Source of the DNA: Bdellovibrionales bacterium GWB1_55_8
GTDB lineage: Bacteria; Bdellovibrionota; UBA1018
Assembly (NCBI GenBank): GCA_001769835.1
Contig: MEPR01000052.1
Location: 61,021 to 125,020 of the forward strand
DNA length: 64,000 nt
Reading direction: 5' to 3'
The position numbers and the translations under genes are program-made. The notes beneath the pieces were generated by a model. It saw only the letters and a list, made by a program, of their open reading frames with translations. It was not told the origin of the DNA and did not search any database. Positions 57,104 to 59,399 of the stretch are shown piece after piece; the stretch's first letter is position 1, and every line of letters begins with the position of its first letter.

Positions 57104-57646
57104 GTGATTATAAAAACTGAAAGCTTTGGCCAGCTGACAGTGAGCGATGAGGAGATCATCCTCATTCCGCAGGGCATTCTGGGATTTCCTGAGTGCAAGC
57201 GATACTGCCTTGTTGACCCGGGTGACGAGACCTTGATCGTCTGGTTGCAGTCGCTCGACAATCCGGCCATCTCATTTCCTTTGCTCGAGCCGAAAATTTT
57301 CCGACCCGACTATACGGCGCGACTTTCAGCGGCCGAACTTCGCGAACTCAAACTCGAGAACATCAATCAGTCGGCCGTCTTCAGCATTCTCACGATTTCC
57401 GAGGATGTCACGCAGATGACCGCAAACCTCAAAGCACCTCTTGTCATCAACCTGAAAGAAAAGCTGGCGAGGCAGGTCGTACTTCAGGAGAACGAGTACA
57501 GCATCAAGCACCTCATGTTCAAGGAATTGCGGGCACACCTGATCACCATTCAGGCGCAACACCGTAAGCCGACTCAGCATGCGGTTTCGACCATCCCAAT
57601 TCGGGATATTCCGCCGTCTCTTACCGTAAAGACACTTCACGCCTGA
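57104..57646 (+). CDS. fliW: Flagellar assembly factor FliW
   Basis: FGQLTVSDEEIILIPQGILGFPECKRYCLVDPGDETLIVWLQSLDNPAISFPLLEP; directly after csrA. Confidence 0.96.
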   Translation: MIIKTESFGQLTVSDEEIILIPQGILGFPECKRYCLVDPGDETLIVWLQSLDNPAISFPLLEPKIFRPDYTARLSAAELRELKLENINQSAVFSILTISEDVTQMTANLKAPLVINLKEKLARQVVLQENEYSIKHLMFKELRAHLITIQAQHRKPTQHAVSTIPIRDIPPSLTVKTLHA

Positions 57647-57652
57647 ACGTGA

Positions 57653-57671
57653 GGAGCCAAGGAATGGCTTC
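57653..57671 (+). promoter_or_regulatory. Putative CsrA-type site: hairpin GGAGCCA-AGGAA-TGGCTTC enclosing SD/start codon of the caspase-like gene
   Basis: 7-bp stem (one G-U), pentaloop AGGAA with GGA; start ATG 57664-57666 begins in the loop. Confidence 0.45.
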
Positions 57672-59025
57672 CGTGCAAATTCGGAAATTTCTGACTACCG
57701 GCCTGATGATCGTGTTTTCAGCTGGTTTGCCTCCCGCACAGGCCGGAGGAGCGAAGACGCATACCTTGTTCCTCGGCGCCGCGGGTGAGCCCGCTGGCAG
57801 CACGACTTTATTTGACCTATCACTTCGAACCGCCGGAGCCTATTTTTCGACTGCAAAGCACCCCGTGAAGCTTGTCTTCGACGGAGGACATTCGGTGACA
57901 GAAAAAATCGCGGCCCAGTTTTACGATGAGCGTGAGGACATTTCGCCCGAAACGGCCAAGGGATCCCTGCGCGCACTCAAAAAAGACATTGAGCGCGGCA
58001 AAATAAAAAAGGGCGAACAGGTGTTGGTGGCGCTCGTATCTCACGGCGCACGTCGCGAGGGGGACGAAGCCGCAACTCACGGAGTCAGCATTGGAAGGCA
58101 GCAGTTGTTGCAGAGCAGGGAGTTGATCCCGCTCCGGGATGCCGCCGAAAAAGCCGGCGTTCGTCTTGCGATCATCGATCAATCCTGTTTTTCCGGCGAT
58201 ACGCTTGCGATCGCCAGCGACAAGACGTGCGTTGTGTCTGCGACGGGAGAGGATGTCGTCAGCTATCCCGTGGAATCGGAGAGTTTCTGGAAAAATGTGA
58301 ACCCAGGAGTCTCGCTCGAGGAAGCATTTCTCAGGGGCCGCAGCCAACGCGCATATCCATCTGTCCCGATGATTTCCACCGCGGCCGGCAAGGCCACGGC
58401 CGAGCTCATCCGGGAAGTGTCGGCTTCATTGATAGGATGGGTGAGTGATCTCGAGAAGCAGGCGGATAAACATTGCGTTGCCGGTTGTTCACAGAATTTT
58501 CCAGCTGAGGACACTACGGCGAAGCTTGATCACGCGATGACAAAAATAGCGAAGACCGCAATCATGGATTCCGAGGCGCTCAAGAAATTTCGAGTGGCGC
58601 TTGAAGAACAATATCGGTTTTTGCACGAATTGTTTTTCCTCACCAGTGATCTCAAGGCCAAGGATAAGCGACAGGAAAAGCTGGTCGACGGCGCCAAGGT
58701 GGATTGGAAATACATGGTTGGCTTTGATCAGGCCGAATTGCGGCAGATGCTCGAGACTGAGCTGGCCTCAGGGGGTTCGATGAAATTCGCCCTCGAAGAG
58801 GAGCTCAAGCAGCTTCCACTGGTCGAGGAGGTTCGTGCTCGCCTCTTGTCCGAGAACGAGGAGTTCCGGAAGTATGTCGAGGCCCACGCACGGTATAAGC
58901 AACTTTTCGGCAAGATGTGGCAAGAGTCGGTGAGGGTTTCTTTGCTTGAGCGTGGCGCGTACGACCGCATTTATAGAAGCATGAAAAGCGAGGGAGCCAA
59001 TCCATGCAGAGATTTCGTATTCTGA
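57664..59025 (+). CDS. Secreted caspase-like (clan CD) protein
   Basis: Signal-like MASVQIRKFLTTGLMIVFSAGLPPAQAGG; dyad-type motifs VLVALVSHGARREG (His) and RLAIIDQSCFSGDT (Cys), the HG...DxCxSG pattern of caspase-like folds. Confidence 0.75.
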   Translation: MASVQIRKFLTTGLMIVFSAGLPPAQAGGAKTHTLFLGAAGEPAGSTTLFDLSLRTAGAYFSTAKHPVKLVFDGGHSVTEKIAAQFYDEREDISPETAKGSLRALKKDIERGKIKKGEQVLVALVSHGARREGDEAATHGVSIGRQQLLQSRELIPLRDAAEKAGVRLAIIDQSCFSGDTLAIASDKTCVVSATGEDVVSYPVESESFWKNVNPGVSLEEAFLRGRSQRAYPSVPMISTAAGKATAELIREVSASLIGWVSDLEKQADKHCVAGCSQNFPAEDTTAKLDHAMTKIAKTAIMDSEALKKFRVALEEQYRFLHELFFLTSDLKAKDKRQEKLVDGAKVDWKYMVGFDQAELRQMLETELASGGSMKFALEEELKQLPLVEEVRARLLSENEEFRKYVEAHARYKQLFGKMWQESVRVSLLERGAYDRIYRSMKSEGANPCRDFVF

Positions 59026-59399
59026 TTTTATTGTTCTCCGCGATGTTTCTCTCGACTGCTCATGCGACTGCACCCCTGGTGTGCGGCACGTATTCGATCG
59101 TGGGCATAGTTGAAGTCAGAGGCCCGAGCGCAACGCTGGTGATTTTTCCGGGCAGTTTGAGTGAAACCCGCCTTCGGTTACGGGCTTCCGCGGCGGACCC
59201 TCGCGCAGGAGTGAGTGCGTTGATGTCAATCCGCGCGTTTTCCGGTGCCAAGGTAAGGGTCGAGGGGCGTATCCGGAAAACGGTTTCCGATCGCAGTGGC
59301 GAGCTTGAGTTGCTGTCTTTCGAACGAGCCATCGGGTCGGAGATCAAAGAGGGTGGCGCTGAGGCTCTCAAGCTGCTCGAAAAGATTCAGTGCGGCTGA
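59004..59399 (+). CDS. Small secreted protein of unknown function, coupled to caspase-like gene
   Basis: Signal-like MQRFRILILLFSAMFLSTAHA; 22-nt overlap with the upstream gene; two Cys in the mature part (LVCGTYS, IQCG). Confidence 0.65.
   Translation: MQRFRILILLFSAMFLSTAHATAPLVCGTYSIVGIVEVRGPSATLVIFPGSLSETRLRLRASAADPRAGVSALMSIRAFSGAKVRVEGRIRKTVSDRSGELELLSFERAIGSEIKEGGAEALKLLEKIQCG

Follow-up and report, generated by a model that had tools for sequence, protein, structure and literature searches.

Two overlapping genes stand directly behind the flagellar genes of a 3.78 Mb genome from the phylum Bdellovibrionota, and they raise the question of whether they serve the flagellum or form a system of their own. 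The window, a stretch of 64,000 nucleotides, had been read in an initial annotation as encoding a secreted caspase-like protein and a small secreted partner, placed together behind a flagellar operon as an undescribed two-gene system. The exported caspase-fold enzyme (as predicted) and its conserved small partner both stand; the connection to the flagellum does not.

The gene pair and its setting

Gene 1 (57664..59025, + strand, 453 aa) is predicted to encode an exported caspase-like (clan CD) cysteine peptidase and gene 2 (59004..59399, + strand, 131 aa) a small exported OB-fold protein. The boundaries of both reading frames, and the 22 nt by which they overlap (59004..59025, + strand), agree with those initially assigned. 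The ATG at 57664 is supported as the start of gene 1 by a Shine-Dalgarno-like GAGGAG (57651..57656, + strand) positioned 7 nt 5' of it. The start codon of gene 2 sits in the Pro-Cys codons of an NPC motif of gene 1, and the corresponding Shine-Dalgarno-like GAGGGAG (58990..58996, + strand), again 7 nt 5' of the ATG, also falls within gene 1. Since the ribosome-binding site of gene 2 is inside gene 1, translation of the two genes is probably coupled. A signal-peptide-like stretch opens both proteins, as had been recognized at the outset, covering residues about 1–27 of gene 1 and about 1–21 of gene 2.

The flagellar genes before the pair end in a csrA-like gene, followed by fliW (57104..57646, + strand; Pfam FliW, 2.6e-38), which is the last gene of the flagellar run and lies 17 nt upstream of gene 1. 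Read-through transcription from fliW may reach the pair, with fliW itself remaining outside the system. On the 3' side, the next gene encodes a TPR protein on the opposite strand, 3 nt from gene 2.

Predicted structure and family of gene 1

AlphaFold2 predicts (pLDDT = 84.7) that gene 1 is composed of a caspase domain (residues about 31–245), a flexible linker (about 255–280) that bears C275 and is of low model confidence at residues 266–280, and an all-helical C-terminal domain (about 281–445), with approximately 200 helical residues following the caspase domain. A C-terminal NPCxxF motif contains C448. When the model was searched against the PDB with Foldseek, the top match was the GPI transamidase PIGK (E = 5.5e-5), followed by caspase-9 (8.4e-5), MALT1 (4.5e-4) and the bacterial protein GSU0716 (1e-3), all four with a probability of 1.00; procaspase-1 was also among the matches. 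The caspase fold and the helical C-terminal region had been proposed from the letters alone, and the predicted structure contains both.

The dyad motifs named in the initial annotation are SHG (residues 126–128), with H127 as the predicted catalytic His (codon 58042..58044, + strand), and DQSCFSGD (residues 172–179), with C175 as the predicted catalytic Cys (codon 58186..58188, + strand). His-Gly and Asp-x-Ser-Cys are invariant among the aligned relatives. Residues were counted over 88 distinct relatives, using the rows that cover each site: H127 is kept in 86/86 and C175 in 87/87, and so the motifs did not arise by chance. Beyond the dyad, C189 is kept in 87/87 and C448 in 83/83 covering rows, and C275 in 82. 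The residue two positions before the catalytic Cys is variable; thus, P1 specificity is not predictable from the S1 pocket.

The gene 1 protein of the window matched no Pfam or NCBIfam model at cut-off, Pfam C13 (22.8 bits) included. Two solitary relatives did pass the C13 cut-off, L019 with 32.2 bits and L021 with 25.5 bits; the match spans the dyad region in both and neither has a partner gene. These are the same genes as L144 and L145 of the survey below, and they are the nearest to Pfam C13. Against Pfam C14 (cut-off 21.4 bits) gene 1 gave no match, and the best relative examined scored 15.4 bits. Based on the fold matches, the invariant dyad and the relatives that pass C13, gene 1 is predicted to belong to clan CD with C13 as the nearest family, and it is very probably an active peptidase of that clan.

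Gene 1 resembles C13 enzymes (legumain, PIGK/GPI8) in its caspase-type fold, its HG...C dyad and its best PDB fold match. It differs in presenting DxSC rather than the E/D-x-C usual for C13, and in being bacterial, exported, provided with an OB-fold partner gene and without a Pfam match. Legumain likewise has a helical C-terminal domain. The caspase fold is also shared with C14, metacaspases and orthocaspases, and most gene 1 relatives carry the C14-like C-H-S-G after the catalytic Cys; however, the family does not keep the metacaspase Asp two residues before that Cys and falls below the C14 cut-off. A text search of a 2012 survey of prokaryotic caspase homologs finds no mention of Bdellovibrio (PMC3501461), and a literature search for caspase in Bdellovibrio or Bacteriovorax returned no papers.

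Predicted structure of gene 2

The AlphaFold2 model of gene 2 (pLDDT = 88.5) has the order β-β-β-α-β-β plus one strand, which is an OB fold, and forms a compact barrel spanning almost the whole mature chain. The family is marked by conserved C-G-x-Y and S-E motifs. The mature protein contains exactly two Cys, C27 and C130, in keeping with the two first noticed, and these flank the barrel. C27 is present in 87/88 relatives and C130 in 85/88. The sole relative without C27 (L004:1124-1519, genome G021) has lost C130 too, and given this joint loss a disulfide between C27 and C130 is likely.

Foldseek matched gene 2 best to a wide variety of OB folds, which makes the fold clear without revealing the function. 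Among them was Potempin A, an OB-fold bacterial protease inhibitor, as a weak match (E = 0.036) no better than other OB folds. By sequence, homology to staphostatins or potempins was not detectable, and neither the protein nor its profile had a significant Pfam, NCBIfam or PDB-sequence match. The NCBIfam model NF033674 (NirD/YgiW/YdeI OB-fold) did not match the window, and one relative reached 15.9 bits against a threshold of 35 (E = 0.011). The NirD/YgiW/YdeI proteins are small exported OB folds like gene 2, but they have no known linkage to proteases. OB folds also bind nucleic acids, sugars or proteins.

The structural models bear on whether gene 2 could be a substrate, or an attached cargo, that gene 1 processes or transpeptidates. 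C13 enzymes such as GPI transamidase carry out reactions of both types, the transamidase PIGK is the best structural match, and the gene for a substrate can be linked to that of its enzyme. This role is nonetheless quite improbable, as gene 2 has no conserved flexible tail or segment resembling a cleavage site and its barrel takes up almost the entire mature chain.

Conservation of the pair

A survey of 369 Bdellovibrionota genomes was made by independent profile searches with each protein. Strong enzyme matches (E below 1e-20) were found at 87 places, and 80 of these have the small gene no more than 1 kb away; it shares the strand of the enzyme in every case and lies downstream in 47 and upstream in 33. 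The small gene does therefore co-occur with the enzyme elsewhere, as the initial annotation expected of a genuine pair, and its standing as a conserved family ruled out gene 2 being a spurious small ORF or chance overlap. The seven exceptions comprise two enzymes truncated at contig ends, one piece of a gene divided between contigs, one decayed copy that nevertheless adjoins a small gene, and three full-length solitary enzymes (L144, L145 and L147). From the solitary enzymes, it is clear that the partner is not required by every member of the family.

Viewed from the other side, 79 of the 93 small-gene matches adjoin a strong enzyme. Eleven of the other 14 adjoin a divergent caspase-like gene missed by the strict cut-off, often with the motif HCF(S/G)GG; the last three comprise two at contig ends and one broken gene. 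Members of this divergent branch (L152, L154, L158 and similar) have an OB partner too, and several of the loci show what resembles an EF-hand calcium loop, placed after the dyad and ahead of the C-terminal helices.

As a rule, the two genes overlap or nearly abut in the 92 pairs for which spacing was determined, with a 4-nt overlap commonest in both orders. No in-frame fusion of the two genes was found among the loci examined. A maximum-likelihood tree built from 83 enzymes shows 9 switches of gene order, at least 7 of which are forced by well-supported branches. The order of the pair is free; its linkage is not. At L081 / L213, from a Bacteriovorax MAG, both orders occur side by side on one strand as enzyme-small-small-enzyme.

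Where a genome carries two or more pairs, as 16 do, the distances between enzymes track those between partners (r = 0.70). Shuffling the partners within genomes gave r = 0.26 ± 0.06, and 0 of 5000 trials reached 0.70; the agreement goes further than species history would take it. This co-divergence denotes a stable module and is not proof of binding, since linked inheritance alone could produce it. Signal peptides were scored by a crude test in 80/83 and 79/83 of the two proteins, respectively. The few pairs usable for dN/dS suggest purifying selection on both genes, with synonymous sites nearly saturated. Decayed copies with in-frame stops exist (L148; G102:C22:4089-4463; G109:C31), from which it follows that the module can be lost. 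No paper on this gene pair was found, and with its coupling conserved across genomes, the description of an undescribed system has held up: the pair is almost certainly a real two-gene module.

Near-obligate pairing and co-divergence would suit any stable complex. The main rival to an inhibitor or chaperone is that the OB protein acts as an activating or targeting subunit, whether as a cofactor, a specificity factor or a cell-wall/surface-binding module, of a two-subunit exported protease. Sugars or peptides are frequent ligands of OB folds, and GPI transamidase, represented by the best fold match PIGK, functions only with partner subunits. Against such a subunit stand the three solitary enzymes and the size, export and layout of the pair, which resemble those of known protease-inhibitor operons (PMC3462683, PMC7296668). 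On the whole this reading is an unlikely one.

Distribution and genomic surroundings

A second pair (L002), also with a 22-nt overlap, occurs in the genome from which the window comes and lies behind an SDH iron-sulfur-like gene. A third gene at that locus (L002:3248-4177), exported and kinase- or phosphotransferase-like in appearance, shares 4 nt with the small gene and has no counterpart in the window. By eye, the Bdellovibrio-type pairs are located between a lipoprotein gene and a queF-like gene with a tadA-like gene also nearby, and other pairs are near glycerol-kinase-like, aldolase-like or lipoamide-dehydrogenase-like genes. Across distant genomes nothing recurs except the pair itself.

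These surroundings decide the question posed by fliW. The position of the pair in the window, on the same strand and 17 nt behind fliW, would suit a flagellar accessory purposely placed there. The second pair of the same genome follows a gene unrelated to the flagellum, pairs elsewhere adjoin the queF-, tadA-, glycerol kinase- and aldolase-like genes, and the single fliJ-like gene near a pair in one other genome makes no pattern. Since the second pair and the others adjoin unrelated genes, the flagellar neighborhood of the window is accidental. With no conserved linkage to flagellar genes in the synteny survey, a flagellar role was ruled out as extremely improbable, and the corresponding part of the initial annotation falls.

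When 84,980 species of bacteria and archaea were searched, the family turned up in Bdellovibrionota only, within the sensitivity that a single exact peptide pattern from a 6-row alignment affords. A scan of genome contigs with a single protein gave no matches. Mobile or phage cargo was rejected as an explanation, tblastn having found no copy of the enzyme in phage and plasmid collections. An anti-phage defense system was likewise set aside: PADLOC reported none in the window, and one of 24 relatives matched 'caspase' at 0.0046.

Some Bdellovibrio- and Bacteriovorax-type genomes hold 2–4 diverged paralogous pairs. Such hosts, and the pairwise co-divergence that is typical of toxin-immunity pairs, would be compatible with an enzyme delivered to prey or competitors and an OB protein that shields the periplasm of the producer. 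However, neither protein showed a domain for secretion or delivery, and no delivery genes are conserved among the neighbors of the pair; the target alone would distinguish this proposal from inhibition. A toxin-immunity role is considered improbable.

Comparison with known protease-inhibitor pairs

Among clan CD proteases (caspases, legumain, gingipains), activity is as a rule restrained by prodomains or by inhibitors encoded separately. The KLIKK group, by contrast with gene 1, consists of metalloproteases and serine proteases. As secreted proteases of Tannerella forsythia, they have an adjacent small exported specific inhibitor, or potempin (PMC7296668), which is the arrangement proposed here, and Potempin A is among the OB matches of gene 2. 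The potempins differ in being lipoproteins, and no sequence relationship to the pair was detected. In Bacteroides, C10 proteases have staphostatin-like inhibitor genes upstream or downstream (PMC3462683). Together with staphopain-staphostatin and SpeB-Spi, these C10-Bfi/Bti systems resemble the pair in coupling a cysteine protease to a small, mostly-β inhibitor gene (PMC3462683). They differ in that the enzymes have a papain fold rather than a caspase fold and that staphostatins are lipocalin-like rather than OB-fold, with staphostatins and Spi acting in the cytoplasm. The pair has in common with bicistronic protease-inhibitor pairs a direct gene coupling conserved across genomes and a predicted exported, small β-barrel partner.

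Proposed mechanism and significance

The OB fold of gene 2, its coupling to gene 1 and the resemblance to known systems favor an inhibitor or chaperone role: gene 2 probably, though far from certainly, inhibits or chaperones gene 1. On balance, then, the protease would be made with its own cognate OB-fold inhibitor or chaperone, with activity, binding and inhibition all proposed. Gene 1 would be a clan CD (caspase/C13-like) cysteine peptidase with an H127 and C175 dyad, exported by Sec, whose helical C-terminal domain on the Cys-bearing linker might serve as a prodomain. Gene 2, whose translation would be coupled to that of gene 1 on a shared mRNA, would be exported as a disulfide-closed OB fold, bind its cognate enzyme in the periplasm during folding and block it until release. 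The enzyme may thus be harmless until it leaves the cell, should export proceed beyond the periplasm, or until it is triggered.

To our knowledge, the gene 2 family would be the first inhibitor family co-encoded with a caspase-fold protease. More tentatively, and as a possibility rather than an expectation, OB-fold inhibitors of this family may control a new lineage of exported C13-like enzymes, a paired set that diversified in predatory Bdellovibrionota and is directed at prey or at self. If the proposal is true, a clan CD protease with a dedicated OB-fold protein would represent a new class of inhibitor or activator. The pair also suggests that predatory bacteria have an exported protease system that is as yet unstudied, one that is present in Bdellovibrio-type genomes.
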